A stretch of 56,516 nucleotides of DNA from the NCBI GenBank assembly GCA_017962495.1, contig JAGCVH010000062.1, positions 1 through 56,516 of the forward strand, written 5' to 3'. The position numbers and the translations under genes are program-made. Shown here one piece after another: positions 4,426 to 56,516 of the stretch; position 1 is the stretch's first letter; each line of letters starts with the position of its first letter. The DNA comes from Bacteroidaceae bacterium. GTDB lineage: Bacteria; Bacteroidota; Bacteroidia; Bacteroidales; Bacteroidaceae. The notes under the pieces are model-generated. The model saw only the letters and a program-made list of their open reading frames with translations, did not search any database and was not told where the DNA came from.

Positions 4426-5336
4426 CAGAACAACCGCTTGTAACCATCGCCATTCCTGCATATAAAGCCGGTCATCTTCGCGAAAGCATAGCCTCGGCTT
4501 TATCTCAGACCTATGAGAATATCGAGGTTGTCGTTGTCAATGACCAATCGCCAGAGGACGTGGCCGCCGTCGTGGATTCGTTCAGTGATACCCGTATTCG
4601 ATACTTCGAGAACGCCCGAAACATGGGGAAGGAAGACCCCAGTCTCAACTGGAACGAGTGCCTCCGACAGGCTCGAGGCGAATGGTTCTGTCTATTGTGC
4701 GACGATGATGTGTATGATTCGCGATTTGTTGAGGAATTATTGTGCATTTCCGAGCGTTATCCCAAGTGCGATGTGTTGCGTTCAGGTGTGGTCATGATTG
4801 ATGGCGAAGACAAAGAAATAAGTGTCTATCCCGAATCGCCTGAGTTTGAAACTGTGGAGCAATATATGTGGGAATTTTTCCATAGTCGTCGTCGCCAAAC
4901 CATCAGTGAATTCATGCTTCGTCGCTCTGCCATCATACAGCTAGGAGGCTACGTAAATCTGCCCTATGCATGGGGTTCGGACAACCTTTCTATCTTTCGC
5001 TTTGGCATGAAGAACGGCATTGCCTCCACACCACTCCGTTTGATGACCTTCCGCGATAGTGGAGAAAACATTTCCAGTGACAGGAAACACATGGATGTGA
5101 AGCTCAAAGCCTTCCTGCAATACATCAATCAGACAAAGGAGATGGTCAGGAAAGAAGGTTTCCGACAAGATTTACTCCCTGTGCTTGACAATTATTATCG
5201 CAGGGCTTCCGTTGCTCATATGGTAGAGGCAAACGCGGAAGACCTAAGGTGCATCGTCCGAAGACCTAAGGCTTACCATATAGGCATTAAGTGTGTGTTG
5301 AAGGCCTTGCTTAGGCGTTGGTTTTTGTCACACTAA
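4422..5336 (+). CDS. Family 2 glycosyltransferase with a repeat-derived C-terminus
   Basis: This 304-residue GT-A enzyme has the N-terminal nucleotide-binding part (VTIAIPAYKAGHLRESIASALSQ..., then VVVVND) and the metal-binding DxD (CDDDVYD, about residue 90). No membrane segment is evident. The acceptor and donor are not predictable, and it is not inside a polysaccharide cluster. The last 33 or so codons are made of four 22-bp dyad-repeat units (5238-5325), giving a tail EDLRCIVRRPKAYH... that is unlikely to be part of the ancestral fold. The gene ends 9 bp inside the convergent dprA gene, with no terminator between them. Confidence 0.88.
   Translation: MTEQPLVTIAIPAYKAGHLRESIASALSQTYENIEVVVVNDQSPEDVAAVVDSFSDTRIRYFENARNMGKEDPSLNWNECLRQARGEWFCLLCDDDVYDSRFVEELLCISERYPKCDVLRSGVVMIDGEDKEISVYPESPEFETVEQYMWEFFHSRRRQTISEFMLRRSAIIQLGGYVNLPYAWGSDNLSIFRFGMKNGIASTPLRLMTFRDSGENISSDRKHMDVKLKAFLQYINQTKEMVRKEGFRQDLLPVLDNYYRRASVAHMVEANAEDLRCIVRRPKAYHIGIKCVLKALLRRWFLSH
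5238..5325. repeat. Four 22-bp dyad-repeat units inside the glycosyltransferase 3' end
   Basis: Units begin at 5238, 5260, 5282 and 5304. The first two share GAAGACCTAAGG and have CCTAAGG at the same phase; the last two are degenerate (GCATTAAG, GCTTAGGCG). The 22-bp step means each unit is read in a different frame. Same family as the intergenic arrays at 12.3, 24.6, 33.2 and 51.3 kb. Confidence 0.75.
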
Positions 5337-9003: not shown

Positions 9004-9007
9004 ATAA

Positions 9008-9052
9008 TCTAGAAAATCTAGCATTTCTAGAACATCTAGGAAATATAGAAAA
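9008..9052 (+). repeat. Five tandem 9-bp units of the type TCTAGAAAA
   Basis: TCTAGAAAA, TCTAGCATT, TCTAGAACA, TCTAGGAAA and TATAGAAAA follow one another exactly in the gap between dapB and lepB and end one base before the lepB start codon. They occupy the whole lepB leader within the presumed dapB-lepB transcript. Confidence 0.85.
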
Positions 9053-9053
9053 T

Positions 9054-12320: not shown

Positions 12321-12408
12321 TATTGAACATAGGTTCGATTGCAAACGAACAATTGTTCGAGGCGCTTCGAATAAGCGTTCGATATGCATCGAGCATGCGG
12401 GGGAGGAA
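12321..12408. repeat. Array of four 22-bp dyad repeats
   Basis: Units start at 12321, 12343, 12365 and 12387. The first three keep the pattern T(T/C)GAAnnnnnnnTTCGA, for example TTGAACATAGGTTCGA and ACGAACAATTGTTCGA; the fourth is degenerate. Same phase and core as the larger array upstream of susC. Confidence 0.8.
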
Positions 12409-24564: not shown

Positions 24565-24784
24565 AAACGAACCTAGGCTCGAGCTTCATCGAACATAGGC
24601 TCGAGGCGCATCGAATATAGGTACGAGACGCATCGAACATAGGTTCGAGGTCTGTCGAATGCAGGTTCGAACCTCATCGAACCTAAGGTGCAAAAAAATA
24701 AGGCCTAAGGCGTTCGGACGGAAGGCCTTAGGTCCTCTTGTATAAGACTTATGGTTTTCATGTTGAAGGCCTAAGCCTTCATTC
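24565..24784. repeat. Array of exactly ten 22-bp dyad repeats upstream of susC
   Basis: Ten contiguous units start every 22 bp from 24565. Units 1-5 have the core TCGAACATAGGTTCGA or close variants, a 6-bp inverted repeat around a 4-bp centre. Unit 6 is a hybrid (TCGAACCTAAGGTGCA). Units 7-10 have the second core (AAGGCCTAAGGCG, GAAGGCCTTAGG, GAAGGCCTAAGCCTTC). All dyad centres stay in the same phase. The array ends about 57 bp before the -33 element of the susC promoter. Confidence 0.9.
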
Positions 24785-30048: not shown

Positions 30049-33000
30049 ATGAAGAAAAAACTATTCCTTTCGATGGTTGCATTGCTGTTGGGTGTAACGT
30101 CTGCATTCGCACAATACAGCCCTTCTGCTGCAACGGAGGTGTTCAAGTTCTCTCCGTTCAACGACAGCAATCTGCTGACGCTCTTCTACAATGCCTTGCA
30201 GGATGGTCGTCAGTATCCAACAACGGCTGAGTTTGAGGCCGCTGGCTTTGATATGAACGACATCGAGTTCGTGCGCTCTCATGTGCGTCGAGCCGAAGTT
30301 ATTGACGATCAGGCTAACCAACTGATGCCTTCGATCAAGAACACTCGTCGCTTCTGGATGAATACGCCCATGGGAACAGCCAAGCTAACAGGTGGATATC
30401 CCAACACGAATACGGGCGACGACACTTATTCGATGTGGAACTACACCCACATGTTTGGTTCGTGGAATCATGGACTCTTTCAGGCTCCTGGTTGCTGGAT
30501 TGATGCCGCTCACCAGAATGGAACCGACATTCTCTCCGGCATTAAGTTCTTCGAGAGTTGGACTCCCGGCTCCGGCGACGCGGCCTATAGTAAGCTCATC
30601 AGTGAGAAGAATAGCGATGGGACTTACAAGTATGTCGAACCCCTCATCAACATACTCCTGTTCTTCGGAAGCGATGGTATCAACTACAACTGGGAGGATT
30701 CCTCTTATGGCGACGCTGATGTCGTAGGCTTCCACAAGGCTTTGTACAAGAAGGCGGCAGAAAAGGGCTTCAACAACTTCCACATAGGTCTTTACACCTC
30801 GCAGTCAACCTTGACGTCCCGTAATGCTAATTCCATCTTTGGTGATGAAAGCGGTCGAACGGCCGACACCTTCCTTAACTACATGGGCAACGACTTTGCA
30901 ACCACCTTCTCTGCTTCGTTGAAAGCCGCCCAAACGGCTATGGGAACCACCGATGGCCTATATGCAGGAGCATGGATAGTTACGATGAACCGTTCTTGGA
31001 CTCGTTTCAAGGACAACGATATGGGTATGGTTCTGTGGGGCGAACATGAGAACAGCCGCTTCTGGAGCAATAATGTGGGCACTGACGCCTCTTCGTTCCA
31101 GGCCAATCTGCAGGCACTCTACGAACGTGCGTTCTCAGGTGGAAACCGCAATCCGGCAAGGCGTCCGACGATGCAGGATTCGGGCAACGAGTGGGGATGG
31201 AACGGTACGACTCCTCCCTTGTCTAAGTTCGGAGGCATTAGCACCTATTTCCCAGAGCGCTCGGCCATTCAGGGCAAGCTTCCCTTCCACACGTACTTCA
31301 ACACGGGTGCGGGCGAGGTTTACAACTATAAAGGAAAGCAGACGGCTGGCTCGTGGTATAACATGTCCACTCAGGATATTGTTCCCACCTATCGTTGGCT
31401 TGTTTACCAGGCAGGTAAGACGGCCGTTAACAATAAGATTCAACCCGAATTCACCATCGATGATGCCTACATGGGAGGTGCCTGCCTTCGCTTGTCTGGT
31501 CAGTTGGACGATAACGGAGCCGACATCATCCTCTTCCGCACGAAGCTGACCGGAAACTCGGGTACTCCCTATGCCAAGATGGCTGTGAAGACGGGACTCG
31601 AAGGCGAGAATGCCACCAACCTATACCTTATTATTAAGATAGGTTCCGAGTGGAAGGAATTCCCCGTAGGTTCGACGACTGGCAAGACTTGGGAAGAGAA
31701 GATCATACCATTGACAGGCATCAGCTCGAGCGACCAGATAGACTTCGTAGGCCTTCGTGCCAAGGGCTCGAACCCCAATTACAAGGTGATGATAGGTCAA
31801 TTGGAACTGAACGACGACGTAAAGACGCAACCTGCTGCAGTTAAGGACCTTCTGGTCGATGTCCGCAAGGAGACCACCAAGAAGTTAAGCGTGAAGCTCA
31901 GTTGGCAAGTTGACGCCACCGGCACAGATAGGGCTGCTTATGGTATGGTATTTAATGACGACGCCAACATCGACCACTTCGAAGTCCTCTACAAAGATGG
32001 CGAGGATGGTCGCGTAAGCTTGGTAAGTCATGTTCGGAGTTGGGCATCGTTTGTGGGAGACATACCTATGGAGGCCGACACGAAACCGTTCATCGGCGTT
32101 CGTGCGGTTAGTTCCGACCTGAAGACCTATAGCGAACCCGTTTGGGTGGAGGTTCCACGCAGTTCGAACGTACCTGCTGAGGATCAGGGCGATGGTCCGA
32201 CCTATGGTACAAGCACGACCGACCCACAGGCTAACGGTTATCTGACGGCAATCAAGACTCGTTATCTGACCACTGTAACAACTACTGGAGCCACCAATGC
32301 AAACTTGAACTACGTGAATGGAAAGGCCAATATCGACAGCACGAACTATTTTCTGATTAAGGATTGTATCTTGAAGGTGAAGCAGGGAGATAATATCAAC
32401 TTCAACTATGTTTATTTCGATTCAAGCGACGGACTTCAGTGGTGCATCATGAAGGCCTATGTCGACTGGAATTGCAACGGTTATTTCGAGGGTTCCACAG
32501 ACGAGCTTATCGTCGAGCAAGGAACGGCAAACACGTGCAACAGCGTGGAGAATACGCCTGAAGGCTCTGTTACGGGAAGCCCCCTGCATGCGAATGGTTG
32601 GAGTCGTAGCCCGCTTATCCCCTTCTCGTTCAAGGTTCCTGATGATGCCGTTCGCGGGAAGTGCCGTCTGCGTATGGTATTTACCGACGCATGGGCTGCT
32701 CATCCTGGTCCCACCGGACTTACGGCTAAGGGCTTAACGATTGATTTCCCTGTTGAGATTACGGGCGATAACAAGGAACGCGAAGTAATTAAGGTTCGCG
32801 ACGAAGGCGAAGCCGACGAGCCCGAAGGCTTGACTGATGGCATCAAAGCAACGAAGGGAGAGGTTAGCAACGCATTTGTGGCCAATGGCAAACTGCAGTT
32901 CGACAACGTGCAGAAGGCTTGGATTTACACCACAGACGGCAAGCTTGTTCGCTTCGTGAAAGATCCCAGCATGCTCAACACCTCCAGCTTTGCTCCTGGC

Positions 33001-33063
33001 CTCTACATCATCAAGATGCAGAACCAAGGCGTGATTCGCTCCAGAAAGTTGGTGATTAAGTAA
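30049..33063 (+). CDS. Secreted family GH85 endo-beta-N-acetylglucosaminidase
   Basis: The 1004-residue protein has a signal peptide (ending SAFAQ) and a GH85 barrel in its first half. Typical segments are MWNYTHMFGSWNHG, GCWIDAAHQNGTDILSGIKFFESW and INILLFFGSDGINYNWED. The last of these gives the N-x-E pair of the substrate-assisted mechanism (N214, E216). Beta-sandwich domains follow, with a GEVED-like region near residue 770 (AYVDWNCNGYFEG). A T9SS-like sorting domain ends the protein (GLYIIKMQNQGVIRSRKLVIK). GH85 enzymes cut the chitobiose core of N-glycans. Third in the operon after SusC and SusD, it defines this locus as a probable N-glycan utilisation system. Confidence 0.87.
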   Translation: MKKKLFLSMVALLLGVTSAFAQYSPSAATEVFKFSPFNDSNLLTLFYNALQDGRQYPTTAEFEAAGFDMNDIEFVRSHVRRAEVIDDQANQLMPSIKNTRRFWMNTPMGTAKLTGGYPNTNTGDDTYSMWNYTHMFGSWNHGLFQAPGCWIDAAHQNGTDILSGIKFFESWTPGSGDAAYSKLISEKNSDGTYKYVEPLINILLFFGSDGINYNWEDSSYGDADVVGFHKALYKKAAEKGFNNFHIGLYTSQSTLTSRNANSIFGDESGRTADTFLNYMGNDFATTFSASLKAAQTAMGTTDGLYAGAWIVTMNRSWTRFKDNDMGMVLWGEHENSRFWSNNVGTDASSFQANLQALYERAFSGGNRNPARRPTMQDSGNEWGWNGTTPPLSKFGGISTYFPERSAIQGKLPFHTYFNTGAGEVYNYKGKQTAGSWYNMSTQDIVPTYRWLVYQAGKTAVNNKIQPEFTIDDAYMGGACLRLSGQLDDNGADIILFRTKLTGNSGTPYAKMAVKTGLEGENATNLYLIIKIGSEWKEFPVGSTTGKTWEEKIIPLTGISSSDQIDFVGLRAKGSNPNYKVMIGQLELNDDVKTQPAAVKDLLVDVRKETTKKLSVKLSWQVDATGTDRAAYGMVFNDDANIDHFEVLYKDGEDGRVSLVSHVRSWASFVGDIPMEADTKPFIGVRAVSSDLKTYSEPVWVEVPRSSNVPAEDQGDGPTYGTSTTDPQANGYLTAIKTRYLTTVTTTGATNANLNYVNGKANIDSTNYFLIKDCILKVKQGDNINFNYVYFDSSDGLQWCIMKAYVDWNCNGYFEGSTDELIVEQGTANTCNSVENTPEGSVTGSPLHANGWSRSPLIPFSFKVPDDAVRGKCRLRMVFTDAWAAHPGPTGLTAKGLTIDFPVEITGDNKEREVIKVRDEGEADEPEGLTDGIKATKGEVSNAFVANGKLQFDNVQKAWIYTTDGKLVRFVKDPSMLNTSSFAPGLYIIKMQNQGVIRSRKLVIK

Positions 33064-33125: not shown

Positions 33126-33387
33126 TGTTTATGCCTATATTCGATGTGCCTCGTAATCGGATGCGAAGCTACGCTTGCCTAGAGTAACGGAGCAAGAACC
33201 TATGTTCGATCGTCTCGAGCCTATGTTCGAAGTGCCTCGAACCTATATTCGATGATGCTCGTGCCTATATTCGATGAAACTCACGCCTTAGGCCTTCCGA
33301 AATAATCCCTAAGGGCTTCCGAAATAAGGCCTAGGCCTTCGAGGATAATCCCTAAGGCTTAATTGATAACGCCTAAGTCTTTCGGCC
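33126..33387. repeat. About twelve 22-bp dyad-repeat units between convergent GH85 and rfbB
   Basis: The left part has the first core in the opposite orientation (CCTATGTTCGA, CCTATATTCGATGA). Units are at 33126, 33148, 33190, 33212, 33234 and 33256, with one disturbed interval at 33170-33189 that holds another dispersed repeat. From 33278 to 33387 five units carry the second core (for example CCCTAAGGGCTTCCG and the perfect palindrome AAGGCCTAGGCCTT). The array stops 6 bp short of the rfbB stop codon. Confidence 0.88.
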
Positions 33388-33393
33388 TTCGGA

Positions 33394-34536
33394 TTAGCGT
33401 CCGGCGTACATGTCCTCGTAATACTTTTCGTATTCACCCGAGGTGATGCGGTCCATCCACTCTTGATTGTCGAGGTACCAACGGACGGTCTTTTCAATTC
33501 CCTCTTCGAACTGGAGGCTGGGTTCCCAACCCAGTTCGCGTTGCAACTTACGCGAGTCGATGGCGTAACGCAGGTCGTGTCCGGCTCGGTCGGTCACATA
33601 GGTGATGAGGTCCATGTCTTCCCCTTCCTTCCGGCCAAGCAAGCGATCGACGGTGTTAATAAGCACTCGGATGATGTCGATATTTTTCCACTCATTGAAC
33701 CCGCCGATGTTGTAGGTCTCGGCCACTTGTCCGCGATGGAAGATGAGGTCGATGGCACGGGCGTGATCCTCCACATAGAGCCAGTCGCGCACGTTCTCTC
33801 CCTTTCCGTAAACAGGTAAGGGCTTTCGGTGGCGTATGTTGTTGATAAAGAGAGGAATAAGTTTCTCTGGGAACTGATAGGGACCGTAGTTGTTCGAACA
33901 ATTGGTTACGATGGTAGGCATTCCGTATGTATCGTGGAAAGCCCTTACGAAATGGTCGCTCGACGCTTTCGCGGCAGAATAGGGCGAATGTGGTTGGTAC
34001 TTCAGGTCCTCGGTAAAGAACTTCTCGCCATAGGCCAAGTGATGACTGCCCGATGAGGCCGTCGTGGTGAATGGTGGTTCGATGCCTTCCGGATGGGTCA
34101 TCTCGAGTGCTCCATAAACCTCGTCAGTGCTGATGTGATAGAACCTTTTGCCTTCGTACCTTTCCGGAAGGCTCTCCCAATATAGGCGTGCGGCTTGCAG
34201 CAAGGAGAGTGTCCCCATCACGTTCGTACGTGCAAAAGTGAAGGGGTCTTTTATGGAGCGGTCCACATGGCTTTCTGCTGCTAAATGCACGATTCCATCG
34301 ACATTTTCTTCCTTCATTAGTTGGAGGAAAGCATCAAAGTCGCAGATGTCCATACGCACGAATCGATAGTTTGGAGCCTGCTCTACATCCTTCAGGTTCT
34401 CAAGGTTGCCGGCGTAGGTCAATTTGTCGAGACAAATGATGCGGTATTCCGGATATTTGTTCACAAAGAGGCGAACCACATGATTCCCAATGAATCCTGC
34501 ACCGCCCGTAATCACAATGCTTCTTTTATAATTCAT
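33394..34536 (-). CDS. rfbB: dTDP-glucose 4,6-dehydratase
   Basis: The 380-residue short-chain dehydrogenase has the Rossmann motif GGAGFIGNHV near the N-terminus. HLAAESHVDRSI and the catalytic ISTDEVYG and SPYSAAKASSDH (Y-x3-K) follow. It converts dTDP-glucose to dTDP-4-keto-6-deoxyglucose for dTDP-L-rhamnose. It is the last gene of the minus-strand rfbA-rfbD-rfbB cluster, 17 bp after rfbD. Confidence 0.95.
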   Translation of the reverse strand: MNYKRSIVITGGAGFIGNHVVRLFVNKYPEYRIICLDKLTYAGNLENLKDVEQAPNYRFVRMDICDFDAFLQLMKEENVDGIVHLAAESHVDRSIKDPFTFARTNVMGTLSLLQAARLYWESLPERYEGKRFYHISTDEVYGALEMTHPEGIEPPFTTTASSGSHHLAYGEKFFTEDLKYQPHSPYSAAKASSDHFVRAFHDTYGMPTIVTNCSNNYGPYQFPEKLIPLFINNIRHRKPLPVYGKGENVRDWLYVEDHARAIDLIFHRGQVAETYNIGGFNEWKNIDIIRVLINTVDRLLGRKEGEDMDLITYVTDRAGHDLRYAIDSRKLQRELGWEPSLQFEEGIEKTVRWYLDNQEWMDRITSGEYEKYYEDMYAGR

Positions 34537-36972: not shown

Positions 36973-37059
36973 GGAGAGATGCCAGAGTGGTCGAATGGAC
37001 CGCACTCGAAATGCGGCGTACGGGCGACTGTACCCTGGGTTCGAATCCCAGTCTCTCCG
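36973..37059 (+). tRNA. tRNA-Ser (anticodon CGA)
   Basis: The 87-nt sequence folds as a class II tRNA. The 7-bp acceptor stem is GGAGAGA/TCTCTCC with discriminator G. The anticodon loop has CGA at 37007-37009. A long variable arm and a T-loop GGTTCGAATCC are present. CCA is not encoded. Confidence 0.95.
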
Positions 37060-44344: not shown

Positions 44345-46603
44345 TTGAATACCGTCGCCCTTCGATACCAAGCCATTTATCTTGATGTAACTGACATCGA
44401 TATGAGTCGTCAGGCATCACCAGCCACGTTAGCCTTTGTTGCCCGTCTGCGAGAGCGAGGCTATACGCTTACGGAGGAACTCTTCCGTGCCTTGTGTGCC
44501 GTGCCTGCTACTACATTGGCAGACATCACGAAGGATATTGATGAGGCATTGGGAGTTGACCTGAACTGGGCACCCTTGGTAAAGGGCTGGGACGTGCCTA
44601 CAGGCGAAACTTTCCTCGACCATCTGGTGACGTGGTTCGTTAATGTAACAGGTGCAGACGTGCCTGGCACGGAGTTACCTTGTGGGCATCTGATTCCAGA
44701 CGGAACCTTTCCGTTGGATCGCTATAATGGTTGTCCCTATTGCGGTCGACCTTTCGTGACGACGAACTACGTCTATAAGGGGCAAGGCAGTAAATTGAAG
44801 GAATTGCGCCTCTTCCGCCTGTCCGACATGCAACACTTGTTGGAAACCCTGCTCACGTCTCCCACTCCACTTGATGCCACACAATTGGATTCCGTTAAGA
44901 AATTAATTCATAATTCACAATTTACAATTCATAATGTGGTTGTGCCACAGATGCGCGAAACGCGAATGGTGGTTGTCAAGTGCTTGATGGAACAAGGTAG
45001 AGGCGATGAGGCTCAACCGCTGATGGAGACTCCTACTGACATTCTTCGCTATTTGTGGTATGAGAAGACGGGACAATTGCAGTTGATAGAACCTCGTACG
45101 CTTATAGCCCATGCAGGCAGACTGAATCGTCATCTGTGGCCAATGGCCGATCGAAGTCAAGAAGCCATAGGTTCAATGCGCAATGAACTTAGGCTCAAGT
45201 ACAATCGAACCTATGTTCGTTGCGTGGCGCGTTGGCTCAACAATTTGGACATGCCTGCCTGGCAGGCGGCAGAGCAGATGCATCCAAAGCGAGGGATGTG
45301 GGTAAGAATGATACGCGCCTTGCGTCTGGGAGAGATGAGCCGAAAGCCTGGCTTCAAACGGCTAAAGGAACTGCTCGATGTCTTCTACCATCAGAACTAT
45401 GAGACTTGGCAAGGGAAGTTGGATGATGCCCATAGGGAAAACGACAAACAGAAGGCTCTATCTATGCTTTGTGAGCGACCTGGCCTGTTTGCCCGTTGTC
45501 TATTCTCCACCATGCTTCGTTATGGACGTGAGGAAACGATGCAAGCCTTCGGTCAGGTTACTGACAAGTTGCCTACCCGATTATTGCTTTCACTGAGTAA
45601 TGCCGCCGAAACATATTTCAATCCTGAAGGCATAGCAGGCGATCGCATAGTGCGTCCCATTACGGGTTCGCCTAAAACCATCGAACTGAACAAGATGTTG
45701 TCGCTATATAGCCTTGAGGAAAGGAGAAAAATGGTCGATTCCATCGAAGAAATATATCTGAAGACGATGGCAAGGCGATTCTCACAACTTGGACAAAAGG
45801 AAGAGGGGCGACGTGTCTATATCGCTCAAGAGTTGTACCATATTCCTTTGGCCGTTGGCGATCGCTCAACAACAATACAAGATACCGCCTGCGCCTTGCA
45901 AGGTACGCGTTTTCCTATTGAAGGCGATAGTGTGCGTCTCTTCCTGCAATGGGGTAAGGGTTTGCCAGCCCAGCATCTTGACATGGACCTCAGTGCACGC
46001 ATAGTCAAGCAGGATGGAGAGGTGGTGGAATGTGCCTTTTACAACTTATCACCAACTGGAGCTAAGCATTCAGGCGACATACGCGAGATTCCCGACCAGG
46101 TGGGAACGGTGGAGTATATTGAACTTGAATTGCCCGAACTGGAACGCTCGCAAGCCGAATATGTTGTCTTCACCTGTAACGCTTACAGCAATGGTGCCCT
46201 CTCGCCCAACCTGATGGTAGGCTGGATGAACTCGGCATACCCAATGTCCGTTTCCGACAAGGACGGTGTGGCCTACGACCCGTCCTGTGTTCAACACTTG
46301 GTACGCATCAGTGAAACCAACCTGTCAAAGGGATTGGTCTTTGGCATATTGAAGGTAAAGGAACGGGAAATCGTTTGGATGGAGGTTCCCTTCACCGCAC
46401 AGACTGTTGGTAAACTGGATGGTCGAGTGGTGGAGGCTATGTTGAAGCGTCTCGAAAACAAGGCCACGATAGGCCAATTACTGGAATTGAAGACACAGGC
46501 ACAAAAGAGTTCGCTCGTCGAAACTCCTGATGAAGCCGACGAGCGATATACTTATGAGTGGGCACTCAATCCTGCCGAAGTGGCTAAAGTCCTCTTTCTG
46601 TAA
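44345..46603 (+). CDS. Zinc-finger (RING-like) protein with TerD-like C-terminus, carrying two repeat insertions
   Basis: 752 residues from a TTG start; an ATG 19 codons later (44402) is an alternative. C113, H115, C130 and C133 (CGHLIPDG...GCPYC) form a RING-like zinc site. The C-terminal third resembles TerD-type domains (VRLFLQWGKGL...DMDLSARIV...SGDIREIP...). The set is like the MXAN_6230/SCO0854 group, of unknown function, related to tellurite/stress genes. Residues 189-199 (LIHNSQFTIHN) come from a 7-bp tandem repeat. Another 22 codons (45159-45224) are three 22-bp dyad repeats. No partner ter genes are nearby. The domain assignment is tentative; the gene is real. Confidence 0.7.
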   Translation: MNTVALRYQAIYLDVTDIDMSRQASPATLAFVARLRERGYTLTEELFRALCAVPATTLADITKDIDEALGVDLNWAPLVKGWDVPTGETFLDHLVTWFVNVTGADVPGTELPCGHLIPDGTFPLDRYNGCPYCGRPFVTTNYVYKGQGSKLKELRLFRLSDMQHLLETLLTSPTPLDATQLDSVKKLIHNSQFTIHNVVVPQMRETRMVVVKCLMEQGRGDEAQPLMETPTDILRYLWYEKTGQLQLIEPRTLIAHAGRLNRHLWPMADRSQEAIGSMRNELRLKYNRTYVRCVARWLNNLDMPAWQAAEQMHPKRGMWVRMIRALRLGEMSRKPGFKRLKELLDVFYHQNYETWQGKLDDAHRENDKQKALSMLCERPGLFARCLFSTMLRYGREETMQAFGQVTDKLPTRLLLSLSNAAETYFNPEGIAGDRIVRPITGSPKTIELNKMLSLYSLEERRKMVDSIEEIYLKTMARRFSQLGQKEEGRRVYIAQELYHIPLAVGDRSTTIQDTACALQGTRFPIEGDSVRLFLQWGKGLPAQHLDMDLSARIVKQDGEVVECAFYNLSPTGAKHSGDIREIPDQVGTVEYIELELPELERSQAEYVVFTCNAYSNGALSPNLMVGWMNSAYPMSVSDKDGVAYDPSCVQHLVRISETNLSKGLVFGILKVKEREIVWMEVPFTAQTVGKLDGRVVEAMLKRLENKATIGQLLELKTQAQKSSLVETPDEADERYTYEWALNPAEVAKVLFL
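44905..44932. repeat. 7-bp tandem repeat inside the TerD-like gene
   Basis: AATTCAT, AATTCAC, AATTTAC and AATTCAT, preceded by AATT, lie in frame and encode the low-complexity peptide IHNSQFTIHN. The region is far more AT-rich than its surroundings. Confidence 0.8.
45159..45224. repeat. Three 22-bp dyad repeats (66 bp) inside the TerD-like gene
   Basis: Units at 45159, 45181 and 45203 match the core used in the susC-upstream array at 14, 15 and 17 of 22 positions by my count (for example TCGAACCTATGTTCG). The block is 66 bp long, so it keeps the frame and adds exactly 22 codons. Confidence 0.7.
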
Positions 46604-51310: not shown

Positions 51311-51395
51311 TCGTCCTAAGGCTAGGCCAAATAACCCCTAGGGCTTCTGCAATAACCCCTAGGGCTTCCGTCATAATCCCTAAGGCTTATTACAG
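51311..51395. repeat. Four 21-22-bp dyad repeats (second core)
   Basis: CTA centres lie at 51316, 51338, 51359 and 51380. The units contain TCCTAAGGC, ACCCCTAGGGCTTC (twice) and TCCCTAAGGC, as in the right half of the rfbB-side array. Confidence 0.8.
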
Positions 51396-52906: not shown

Positions 52907-55747
52907 TTATTTAATTAAAACTTTTTTCCCGTTAATGATGTAAACGCCCTTCTTCAGACGCACTTCTGTAACTTTACGTCCAGTCAAGTCATAGCAGTTG
53001 GCCTCTGCCGGCATCATGCTCTCAATGTCGCTAATACCCGTAGGCAGTGTTCCATGAACACCACTTAGATGCATTACAGATGTATTGGGTCTTACGAGAG
53101 TAATGCCCTCGACGTCTATGTCGCCAAATGCCTCCTTATTCTTGCTGGTCAGTTTCAGAGTCAGCAGACTGTGGTCGGCCAGGTTTACTGTTTTGCCGTC
53201 CATCGTACCGTACAATAGTCGCCATGCACCATTTTGGAGTTGTGCATAAGAGAGGTTGCGTGTCTGCTTTGCCTTGCTCATGTTCGCCCCATAGATTTCA
53301 ATGCCTTCTGGCAGGAAGATGTCTATTTGGAATGCAGAGAACGTGGGAGTGTTATGCAACAGCAATTCTACGAGCCCATCTTCCGTTACTTCCATTCCCA
53401 TCCAAGGCGATGCCTGTTCGGTTGTCAGGGCCTTGATGGCATTCGCGTTGTTAGCTTGGGGGCCTTGATAGTTTCCATAGAGGATGATGTTGGCTACGCC
53501 CAAATAGTCGGCCACGTCCACATTGCTGTCTTGGGTTACATCAGCAGCTGCTTCATTGAATGTGGTAGGAGCCTGTCCCAAAATGTAGTTGGCAATAGTC
53601 AGGTAGTCAGAAACGTCCACGGCATTGTCGCTATTTACATCGCCTGCGGTGAATTCTATGTCTTCAATGATTTCCCTAAACTCATTCCAGTAATCCGCAG
53701 CCTCGTAAGCCGCCTTACAACCTACAGGAACATACAGCGTGGCATTGGTGCGGTTGCTGAACACGTTCGAGGTTATAGTGATGGGAGTTTCCACATTCAC
53801 CGTTACGGATGTCATTCCACTGCATTGATTAAACGCATAACTACCAATGCTTGTGACGCTGTTGGGAATGTTGATTGAAGTCAGGCCACTACATCCCCAG
53901 AACGCAGAACTGCCAATGCTTGTCACGCTGTTGGGAATGTTGATTGACGTCAGTCCACTGCAGCCACAGAACGCATAATCGCCAATGCTTGTGACGCTAC
54001 TGGGGATGACGGTGTTTTGGCAGCCGGCAATGAGTTTGTTGGTTGAAGTCTCGATGATAGCATTGCAGTTATCACGTGAATCATATACCGCATTGCCGCT
54101 TTCAACTGAAATTGATGTCAGTCCACTACAACCATTGAACGCATAACTGCCAATGCTTGTGACACTGTTGGGGATGACTATCTCTGTCAGCCCTGTGCAG
54201 TTGTTGAAGAACCAGTCTCCCATGCTGGGAATTCCTTCTGGTAGGGTGATGCTCGTCAGACTGCTGCAATCCGAGAAGGCAGCACCATCTATGAAGGTAA
54301 TGGTCGCGGGCAGGTTAATCGATGCCAAGGCATAGCAGTCGTCGAAAGCAGAATAACCTATCTGCGTGATGTTATCGGGAATAACCACTGATGCCAAGCT
54401 CGTACATTTGTAGAAGCACTTTCGTGGAATCTCCGTCAACCCCGTGAAGTGCTGCAACTCATCGAACGAAGTTATCTGGCTATTGTTTTCGAACACGTTG
54501 CTTAAACTGGTCACCGCTGCCGCCTCCTCATAACTCAACTCTCCGTCGCTATTGATATCCCAGTTGGCAACGCAGATTGCTTTAACGTTGGCATCGGCGA
54601 ATGTGATGTTGGATGATGGTGCCTCCATCTCTATAATTTCCTTAAAATCTTTCCAGTAGTTAGCTGCTTCGTAGGCGGTTTTACTGCCTGCTGGGACATA
54701 AAGAGTAGCATTGGTGCGGTTGGAGAAGGTGCTAAATATAATGGACAATGGATTTTTGATATCCACTTTTACCAATGTCAGTCCACTACAACCATAGAAC
54801 GCATAAATGCCAATGCTTGTCACGCTGTTGGGGATGGTCACCGATGTCAGTCCACTGCAGCCAGAGAACGCAAACTCGCCAATACTCGTGACGCTGCTGG
54901 GAATGTTGATTGAAGTCAGTCCACTACAACCATAGAACGCATGACTGCCAATGCTTGTCACGCTGTTGGGAATGTTGATTGAAGTCAGTCCACTACAGTT
55001 CCGGAACGCATAACTGCCAATGCTTGTCACGCTGTTGGGAATGTTGATTGAAGTCAGTCCACTACAGTTCTGGAACGCAGAACTGCCAATGCTTGTCACG
55101 CTGTTGGGAATGTTGATTGAAGTCAGTCCACTACAGCTCTGGAACGCATCATAGCCAATGCTTGTCACGCTGTTAGGTATCTCTATTGAAGTCAATTCTG
55201 TGCAGCCTTGGAACGCTAAATCACCAATGCTTGTGACGCTGTTGGGGATGGTAACGGATGTAAGGCTTTTGCAATCAGCGAACTCTCCATACCCAATGCT
55301 TGTTATGCTATTAGGTATGGTTACGGATTTTAGTCCGCTATGAGTGAATGCTTCAATGCCAATCGAGGTCACACTATTAGGAATGGTAACCGATGTTAGT
55401 CCTTCACATAGATAAAACGCCAACTCGCCAATACTCGTGACGCTGCTGGGAATGTTGATTGATGTCAGTCCACTACAACAATGGAATGCAGAAAAACCAA
55501 TACTTGTGACGCTGTTAGGTATGATGGTGCTCATGCAACCAGTTACTAACTCGTTAGATGAAGTTTTGATGATGGCATTGCAATTATCACGGGAATCATA
55601 TACGGGATTTCCGCTTTCAACTGAGATTGATGCTAGTTTACTACAACAATTAACCAATTGAATGCCAATACTCGTGACACTTTTGGGTATAGTAAGGGAT
55701 GTTAGTCCACTACAACCAAAGAATGCACATTGGCCAATTGATGTCAC
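52907..55747 (-). CDS. Main open segment of the BspA-type LRR protein, with dockerin-like, cohesin-like and T9SS-like C-terminus
   Basis: 946 residues from the first Met after the second TGA; there is no signal peptide, so it is probably not a natural start. LRR blocks (about 1-345 and 400-660) enclose an EF-hand-like stretch (NWDINSDGELSYEEAAAV). A paired dockerin-like region (GDVNSDNAVDVSDYLTIANY; QDSNVDVADYLGVANII), a cohesin-like domain (FSAFQIDIFLPEGIEIYG) and a sorting tail (GRKVTEVRLKKGVYIINGKK) follow. A cell-surface binding role is inference from the BspA family. Confidence 0.75.
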   Translation of the reverse strand: MTSIGQCAFFGCSGLTSLTIPKSVTSIGIQLVNCCSKLASISVESGNPVYDSRDNCNAIIKTSSNELVTGCMSTIIPNSVTSIGFSAFHCCSGLTSINIPSSVTSIGELAFYLCEGLTSVTIPNSVTSIGIEAFTHSGLKSVTIPNSITSIGYGEFADCKSLTSVTIPNSVTSIGDLAFQGCTELTSIEIPNSVTSIGYDAFQSCSGLTSINIPNSVTSIGSSAFQNCSGLTSINIPNSVTSIGSYAFRNCSGLTSINIPNSVTSIGSHAFYGCSGLTSINIPSSVTSIGEFAFSGCSGLTSVTIPNSVTSIGIYAFYGCSGLTLVKVDIKNPLSIIFSTFSNRTNATLYVPAGSKTAYEAANYWKDFKEIIEMEAPSSNITFADANVKAICVANWDINSDGELSYEEAAAVTSLSNVFENNSQITSFDELQHFTGLTEIPRKCFYKCTSLASVVIPDNITQIGYSAFDDCYALASINLPATITFIDGAAFSDCSSLTSITLPEGIPSMGDWFFNNCTGLTEIVIPNSVTSIGSYAFNGCSGLTSISVESGNAVYDSRDNCNAIIETSTNKLIAGCQNTVIPSSVTSIGDYAFCGCSGLTSINIPNSVTSIGSSAFWGCSGLTSINIPNSVTSIGSYAFNQCSGMTSVTVNVETPITITSNVFSNRTNATLYVPVGCKAAYEAADYWNEFREIIEDIEFTAGDVNSDNAVDVSDYLTIANYILGQAPTTFNEAAADVTQDSNVDVADYLGVANIILYGNYQGPQANNANAIKALTTEQASPWMGMEVTEDGLVELLLHNTPTFSAFQIDIFLPEGIEIYGANMSKAKQTRNLSYAQLQNGAWRLLYGTMDGKTVNLADHSLLTLKLTSKNKEAFGDIDVEGITLVRPNTSVMHLSGVHGTLPTGISDIESMMPAEANCYDLTGRKVTEVRLKKGVYIINGKKVLIK
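54778..55345. repeat. Near-identical 69-bp LRR-coding tandem repeats
   Basis: Each 69-bp unit encodes one 23-residue repeat. Several neighbours differ at only a few positions (shared blocks such as CAATGCTTGTCACGCTGTTG and GAAGTCAGTCCACTAC). Similar units continue at 55660-56516. Such identity favours recombination and can also cause assembly error. Confidence 0.85.
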
Positions 55748-55912
55748 GTTGCTTGGAATAATTATCTCAGCAAGCCCGCTGCAGTTCTCGAACGCCCACC
55801 CATCAATCTTCGTGACGCTGTTGGGTATTGTGATGGATGTAAGACCACTACAACCAGAGAAAATTGCATTTGCAATGGTGGTGATGCCGTTAGGTAGTGT
55901 GACAGATGTTAG

Positions 55913-56329
55913 TCAACTACAACCAGCGAATGCACCTTGGTAAATTGATTTCACACTGTTGGGAATAGTAACAGAGGTCAGACCACTGCAATTAGCGAAT
56001 GCCAGCATGCCAATGGCCGTCACGCTGTTGGGAATAGTAACAGATGTCAGGCCACTACAATTCCTGAACGCATAACTGCCAATGCTTGTTACGCTGTTGG
56101 GAATAGTAACAGAGGTCAGAGCACTACAGCCTTCGAACGCATAACTGACAATGCTTGTGACGCTACTGGGGATGACGGTGTTCTGGCAACCAGCAATGAG
56201 TTTGTTGGTTGAAGTCTCGATGATAGCATTGCAATTATCACGGGAATCATATACGGGATTTCCGCTTTCAACTGAAATAGATGCCAGACTGGTGCAACCT
56301 GAGAAAGCATGTTCACCAATAGTTGTCAC
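55913..56329 (-). pseudogene. LRR fragment between the two in-frame stops
   Basis: A 138-codon stretch with five to six LRR units, including a non-LRR block (VESGNPVYDSRDNCNAIIE) that occurs in nearly the same form twice more downstream. It ends in TGA where sister repeats have GGA. It lacks a signal peptide and is part of the broken gene. Confidence 0.7.
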
Positions 56330-56516
56330 TCTGTTGGGAATAGATACCGATGTCAGTCCACTACATCAATGGAACGCATAATCGCCAATGCTTGTTACGC
56401 TGTTGGGAATAGTAACAGATGTCAGAGCACTACAGCCTTGGTATGCATAACTGCCAATGCTTGTCACGCTGTTGGGAATAGTAACAGATGTCAGGCCACT
56501 ACAGTTCAGGAACGCA

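Follow-up and report, generated by a model that had tools for sequence, protein, structure and literature searches.

A 22-bp phased palindrome array upstream of a SusC/SusD-like gene pair looks like one member of a rapidly evolving family of small DNA elements that spread

What is an array of ten phased palindromes doing upstream of SusC and SusD-like genes? The question is raised by positions 24565–24784 of contig JAGCVH010000062.1 from a Bacteroidaceae bacterium. We refer to the whole analysed stretch of 56,516 nucleotides as the window; it corresponds to contig C14 in the draft genome G000 (2.95 Mb in 104 contigs, 85% complete). A first, sequence-only reading of the locus had proposed three possible roles, namely operator arrays, nucleoid-protein sites or the remnants of a replicating element.

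As that reading had claimed, the interval 24565–24784 is filled by ten contiguous units of 22 bp. The first six are TCGAA-N6-TTCGA dyads in a 22-bp phase on the forward strand (24567–24692, with starts at 24567, 24589, 24611, 24633, 24655 and 24677), matching this pattern at 8, 9, 9, 10, 10 and 7 out of 10 positions, respectively. Four CCTAAGG-type units follow in the same register (24697–24784, forward strand) and match the pattern at 0–3 positions. The earlier division into five units with a shared core, one hybrid and four CCTAAGG units is thus right in so far as six TCGAA-type units are followed by four others in register, but the exact core TCGAACATAGGTTCGA is present in only one unit of the array (at 24633). 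Likewise, the register and a CCTAAGG-like dyad can be recognized by eye in the last four units, but these units have no TCGAA core. The longest 22-bp-phased chain comprises six dyads in the real window as compared to one (29 times) or two (21 times) in 50 two-base-block shuffles. The statement that all dyad centres face one side of the DNA is inexact, since simple arithmetic at 10.5 bp per turn would give an advance of about 34 degrees with each 22-bp step.

Among the downstream genes, SusC (TIGR04056) and a SusD-like protein were both confirmed. The third protein (30049–33063) resembles the endo-beta-N-acetylglucosaminidase HS (PDB 9x1i) over its full length with an E-value of 6.4e-264, but neither a GH85 nor any other glycoside hydrolase model in Pfam or NCBIfam matched it. 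A T9SS sorting domain is present at the end of this third protein.

Five further array sites had been named in the window, of which two are solid. One (12321–12408, forward strand) lies 70 bp past a peptidase M16 gene and has three or four units of 22 bp whose cores change (CATAGG, CAATTG, TAAGCG and degenerate). The other, named at 33126, contains five TCGAA-type units between convergent genes (33151–33274, reverse strand), is broken by a 43-bp module and is extended by CCTAAGG-type units (33286–33385, reverse strand). The site at 51311 is a CCTAAGG/CCTAGG-type array with a pitch of 21–22 bp (51315–51390, forward strand). The remaining two claims fared less well: the site at 5238 has just two CCTAAGG units, 22 bp apart, inside the coding part of a glycosyltransferase-2 reading frame, at its 3' end (5230–5273, forward strand), and that at 45159 has weak degenerate units inside the open reading frame 44345–46603 (45139–45220, strand unassigned) and is an uncertain member. 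The 43-bp module (TAATCGGACGCGAAGCTACGCTTGCGTAGAGAAACGGAGCAAG-like) is close to two units long and recurs at the same unit point in several arrays of G000 and of its sister species described below (window 33152–33194; L035 2078; L036 2110 and 2175; L058 7786; L062 2083; L099 2820; L111 5880). Two other kinds of repeats are present in the window, a 9-bp tandem repeat at 9006–9053 and long 69-bp tandem repeats across reading frames at 53832–56504, the latter presumably leucine-rich-repeat-like.

The family extends over the whole G000 genome. A search with the core at up to one mismatch gave 39 + 40 = 79 matches and the reversed-pattern control gave none. Stretches around every core match were examined (45 stretches plus the window); in these, neighbouring dyads are spaced by 22 bp 95 times, by 21 bp three times and by 23 bp once. 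The genome scan suggested with the sequence-only reading thus finds the core to be non-random and phased. Grouping these dyads gives 53 arrays, each with one to seven dyads detected, or 52 if L034 and L065 are, as is probable, opposite ends of an array that the assembly broke (L034 was left out of the spacer-sharing and adjacent-spacer analyses); among the 46 stretches, L042 has no array under the grouping rule. Beyond the conserved units, phased dyads of other sequence are only weakly indicated in G000 (z of 2.7 at 22 bp and 2.5 at 44 bp, stemming partly from the CCTAAGG units), and none convincing were found in the congeners G013 and G002.

Outside G000, the core is rare. Among 60 congeners, six have one match each and 54 have none, and three of 40 order-mates have one or two. 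A looser pattern of two dyads with three mismatches allowed is present at 137 places in G000, 20 in G017, 8 in G015, 6 in G025, 4 in G046 and 0–2 elsewhere, where counts of one or two mean little as the reversed control gives 0 in G000 and 0–2 elsewhere. Across 84,980 species genomes, the exact two-dyad pattern occurs in 36 stretches, and three Bacteroidales MAGs account for 26 of these (RUG14659 for 10, UBA939 for 8 and RUI084 for 8). Since RUG14659 has the cores of G000 and 80–91% DNA identity to it over alignments longer than 1 kb, it is, judged from sequence, a sister species of G000. In UBA939 (L094, L097, L120) and RUI084 (L102, L110), elements made of 22-bp units can be seen by eye to have inverted sequences, resembling TTGCATAAATCTTTTCG and CTTCTTTGTTCGG, at their ends. 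A phage origin was rejected, as the two-unit pattern of the G000 core had no exact match in viral contigs.

How the arrays came to lie between genes can be seen at orthologous sites. At 20 of 29 congener loci, the genes for peptidase T and an S4-domain protein abut (gap of −8 to +85); one of these loci is that of G046, the nearest of the 60 sampled congeners as judged by two proteins, in which the genes overlap by 4 bp (gap −4). G000 has 169 bp between the two genes, occupied by three core units and about four CCTAAGG-type units; in RUG14659 the gap is longer still and the peptidase stop codon lies within array-like sequence. Because the pair abuts in so many congener loci, that of the nearest congener included, we infer an insertion, most simply dated later than the divergence from G046 but earlier than that from RUG14659. 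Inspection by eye of the two sites compared gave no sign of a target-site duplication, which counts against a spreading element. The C-terminal codons of peptidase T together with its stop seem to be supplied by the array, clearly in RUG14659 (L306) and less so in G000 (L026), in both on the minus strand of the locus. At a site 3' of phosphofructokinase, the downstream gene is kept in five relatives and the array is absent in G046, G038 and G017; this comparison is not counted as evidence. Large other palindromes are visible by eye right after phosphofructokinase, at the site of the G000 array, in L210 (G026), L211 (G014) and L213 (G021).

Arrays of the same pitch but built from other palindromes are present in congeners. 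A de novo scan for similar palindromes at any pitch of 14–40 bp, covering 1.15 Mb from 25 congeners, gave 38 clusters: 14 at 22 bp, 4 at 21 bp, 7 at 18 bp and the others scattered. In the controls, none of the four clusters in 20 order-mates (273 kb) and neither of the two in two block-shuffled copies had a pitch of 21–22 bp. The scan is not very sensitive: in the window, it recovered a single cluster at 22 bp. The 21/22-bp clusters come from 8 of the 25 congeners sampled and are mostly intergenic (16 of 18, with two inside called genes). Only the 15 first stretches were blind, and four of these 15 congeners have a 21/22-bp cluster (G001, G002, G012 and G013); further stretches of these four were chosen after arrays had been found in the first. 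Moreover, 22 of the 60 scanned congener stretches (L135, L138–L141, L158–L161, L182–L184, L186–L190 and L194–L198) lie on contigs flagged by the earlier core or looser-pattern searches, and these contribute 6 of the 18 clusters. No 21/22-bp cluster was found in G003, G004, G011 and G046, with 60–100 kb sampled, which counts against the spreading-element reading given below. Palindromes at other pitches, a further point against it, also occur between genes of congeners, at 9 bp (CTATAG, TCTAGA) and 7 bp (CAATTG) (L130 1988–2060; L147 4376–4412; L200 1928–1973; L201 9725–9802), and 22 bp is the leading but not the sole pitch of intergenic palindrome arrays.

The cores of these arrays are AAGACGCGCGTCTT in G001, AACTCCCCTAGGCGAGTT in G002, TTTTCACGTCATGAAAA in G013 (21 bp), GTGCCACAGATGGCAC and TCGAACCATGGTTCGA in G017, CGCAACGTGGTGCG in G025, TCCCACTGGTGGGA in G041 and GGAACAATGGTTCC in G043, with three cores in G012. 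Judged by eye, GAAC/GTTC arms are common to G000, the second G017 core and the G043 core, so not every congener core is unrelated to that of G000, while the others look unrelated. A species may have several cores, again by eye: three in 100 kb of G012 and two each in G001, G013 and G017. The G013 core gives 158 matches in G013 and none in the other 60 genomes; the G002 core gives 107 strand-hits in G002, some places being counted on both strands, and one each in the order-mates G071 and G084. These two cores are species-private. One G017 core is found at 9 places in G017 and once each in G022 and G080. All 22 spacings in G002 are of 22 bp, and all 26 in G013 are of 21, 42 or 63 bp. In L274 and L276 of G013, repeats of about 22 bp (TTTTgCgaCrCGtCgggAag-like) seem, by eye, to extend outward beyond the 21-bp dyad array. 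The earlier observation that spacing is kept while sequence drifts is therefore seen both within G000 and across congeners with other cores. The selection on phase that it was taken to suggest is unsupported, as the copying mechanism may itself give a constant pitch.

Each unit is composed of a dyad of about 16 bp and a spacer of about 6 bp, and the two behave differently. In seven orthologous array pairs of G000 and RUG14659, identity is 308/352 in dyads, 404/457 in flanks and 34/84 in spacers, register shifts from gain or loss of units contributing to the low spacer value. Spacers thus turn over far faster than dyads or flanks between the sister species. Adjacent spacers of G000 are directly alike in 188 letters over 59 pairs against 133.4 ± 9.1 (none of 3000 permutations reached 188) and are alike as reverse complements in 98 against 127.6 expected; in RUG14659, 11 pairs gave no direct likeness (30 against 30.3, P = 0.56). 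Identical spacers make up 74 of 5683 comparisons between G000 arrays (1.3%) and 10 of 95 within arrays, where column composition would give 0.40 ± 0.11%. As adjacent-spacer likeness and spacer sharing both exceed expectation, the pattern fits tandem duplication of units together with exchange between arrays. Compensatory change at mirrored dyad positions of G000 does not go beyond chance except for the central pair (10 against 1.5), and the dyad symmetry therefore looks inherited from a founder unit. In G002, the whole element looks like one hairpin. All 22 of the elements found are 76 bp long, with a pattern that allows only spacers of 4–6 bp; all 22 fold as a single hairpin with RNA energies, and five do likewise with DNA energies. 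The outer spacers of G002 are more complementary than permuted ones (53 against 40.6 ± 4.2, P = 0.0034), as compared to G000, where no reverse-complement relation between first and last spacers was found (P = 0.93, 13 arrays).

We consider the arrays to be, with a probability of about 0.58, spreading palindromic elements of a REP/BIME-like kind that are tag-less and modular in steps of 22 bp. The array upstream of SusC looks like part of a family of small DNA elements that spread and evolve rapidly, and not like a one-off regulatory site. Of the three roles proposed by the sequence-only reading, remnants of a replicating element fits best, on the grounds of insertion, private families, unit duplication and spacer sharing. 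According to this proposal, short non-coding palindromic elements would spread between intergenic sites and the arrays would grow through tandem duplication of the 22-bp unit. A host enzyme might recognize foldback DNA rather than its letters and copy or insert it in quanta of 22 bp, a length that would reflect the geometry of the copier or of a bound protein. Recombination between arrays would then homogenize the dyads within a species. The 3' positions would mostly be what selection tolerates, and any effect on mRNA ends or nucleoid proteins would be secondary. A bolder form of this idea is tentative and rather doubtful: a genus-wide system which amplifies DNA foldbacks in quanta of 21–22 bp (two helical turns), reads shape and length instead of sequence, keeps a private palindrome alphabet in each species and works without a Y1/RAYT transposase.

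The same data could also come from phased protein-binding arrays, in which a dimeric chromosomal protein sits on each dyad, at steps of two helical turns, and forms a filament, and a fast-changing specificity drags the core along. A pitch of 21–22 bp kept by differing cores, dyads conserved at the level of the flanks while spacers change and a single dominant core per family genome-wide would all suit such a protein. However, the arrays lie between genes that abut in relatives and are absent in the nearest sampled congener, the several cores of G012, G001, G013 and G017 would each require their own protein, and the dyads of G000 lack compensatory change beyond the central pair. Unit exchange can, moreover, account for the spacer turnover. 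We regard this explanation as unlikely.

Position relative to genes bears on the spreading-element reading as well as on any role in gene expression. Intergenic G000 arrays flanked by two genes number 47, of which 25 have codirectional, 18 convergent and 4 divergent neighbours; for the gaps of 30 bp or more in these stretches, the corresponding numbers are 79, 27 and 26 (n = 132, array gaps included). Four of the 53 arrays are inside genes and two at stretch edges; none of 24 clusters in G013 and none of 22 in G002 are inside genes. Codirectional arrays are closer to the 3' end of the upstream gene in 23 of 25 cases in G000, 11 of 15 in G002 and 7 of 9 in G013. The arrays are thus palindromic, multicopy and mainly extragenic with a 3'-side and convergent preference, like REP and BIME elements in the broad sense. 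An operator of the SusC/SusD operon is rejected, and the operator arrays of the sequence-only reading are not supported, because dozens of arrays adjoin unrelated genes, mostly on their 3' side and often between convergent genes.

These positions could point to elements that act in RNA, as transcribed tandem hairpins which protect mRNA 3' ends, take part in their processing or terminate transcription. The 3' placement and the excess of convergent sites in G000 would suit such a role. So would the orientation of the asymmetric core (ATAGG strand), which in the 25 codirectional G000 arrays is sense in 19, anti in 5 and tied in one; this bias is unexpected for a pure DNA parasite and counts against the spreading-element reading. 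The window array also folds better than its own shuffles as RNA (z −5.0), but it does so more strongly as DNA (z −7.0). In G013, convergent placement is raised (8 of 23 placed arrays against 14 of 92 gaps), but divergent placement is not depleted (6 of 23 against 17 of 92) and orientation is unbiased (3 sense, 3 anti, 3 tied); in G002, 9 arrays are sense and 6 anti. Sense bias is no stronger for cores whose sense strand has a G-T pair (20:8) than for cores lacking one (29:8). No intrinsic terminator (stem-loop plus T-run) was found in 24565–24784 or 33126–33394, the two array intervals scanned, which dismisses this identity, and terminator-like sites over the whole region number 8 against 7.8 expected. 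An RNA-level role is distinctly improbable. A known structured RNA was also rejected, as the only Rfam match above gathering score in the window is a tRNA (36973–37059) and the arrays are unmatched. Least probable by far is a pure mutational by-product of replication slippage and template switching at chance palindromes without dedicated machinery, which would agree with tandem unit duplication in G000 and with the 7- and 9-bp palindromic pitches of congeners but alone fails to explain one core at dozens of sites, the common 21–22 bp pitch of differing families or the G002 76-bp element (22 of 22 found, with 4–6 bp spacers allowed).

If the arrays are spreading elements, a transposase might be expected in the same genomes. 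No Y1_Tnp domain (PF01797) was found in G000, G046, RUG14659, UBA939 and RUI084, nor in G001, G002, G012 and G025; these are draft MAGs, from whose assemblies a transposase may be missing. Across the genus, 22 of 61 genomes have a match at E ≤ 0.001, 17 of them above the cut-off and many partial; the match is full-length in G013 and partial in G017, G041 and G043. Mobilization by a RAYT is rejected for G000 and its sister RUG14659, as no Y1_Tnp was found in either. The tags of known REP families are not enriched: within 8 bp of G002 units, GTAG and CGTC both occur in 0 of 44, and near 156 G000 units GTAG occurs in 3% against a background of 10% and CGTC in 17% against 23%. All 50 G013 units have CGTC within this distance, but here the tag is part of the core used for the search. 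G000 therefore carries neither the mark of tagged REPs nor that of RAYT-mobilized elements, its tags being unenriched and no Y1_Tnp being found.

Among REP-like repeats, those studied best depend on a single transposase and a single tag, and the genomes tested here are without both marks, while the differing palindromes of related species have a common pitch and a recent spread. With a sister species of the same core and relatives with the empty site, the arrays offer a natural experiment in which to ask how the size of palindromic repeats and their spread are determined. They also imply that strongly phased palindromes upstream of polysaccharide-utilisation genes are not necessarily operators.

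Among the titles and abstract openings searched, with few subscription journals covered, no 22-bp phased palindrome arrays are described in Bacteroidales. The earlier statement that no element of this form is known is only partly right, since REPs, BIMEs and REPINs, as far as the available parts of their descriptions go, share most of the general behaviour. CRISPR arrays have repeats of 24–48 bp, unique spacers and cas genes, as compared to spacers of about 6 bp here. The neisserial NIME/dRS3 elements are intergenic mosaics of a short inverted repeat whose arms are constant and whose core varies; they differ from the arrays here in sequence and phylum and, by description, in having no contiguous 22-bp tandem.

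BIMEs, in the available part of their description, are mosaics in which palindromes follow one another at regular distances, some units being flipped, and are built of REPs linked to RAYTs (PMC2817692). The arrays are similar in being mosaic, in their regular spacing and in their flipped units, but the BIMEs of that description are RAYT-linked and five genomes here (G000, G046, RUG14659, UBA939 and RUI084) have no Y1_Tnp. In comparison to Pseudomonas REPINs, as far as these are described in the accessible text (PMC3116915), the G002 element is alike in its terminal inverted dyads, single hairpin and compensating spacers, but differs in lacking Y1_Tnp, in its internal 22-bp modules and in its length of 76 bp, and the G000 arrays have no hairpin-type spacer symmetry. 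The GTAG and CGTC super-families of REPs are presented, in the part of the source available, as short multicopy palindromes, some families being species-specific, which lie mostly outside genes, downstream of coding regions and between unidirectional and convergent genes, with some intragenic units (PMC3733652). Their units are singlets or dimers, mostly 20–100 bp apart, and CGTC families are known in Bacteroidetes and also without an associated transposase, according to the same partial text (PMC3733652). Against that account, our arrays are likewise multicopy, extragenic, 3'-biased and species-private palindromes; they are distinguished by contiguous 22-bp tandem units, by differing cores that share one pitch and by tags that are unenriched in G000 and G002. 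Since G013 units hold CGTC and CGTC-tagged REPs occur in Bacteroidetes, the G013 family may be closer, or distantly tied, to those REPs.
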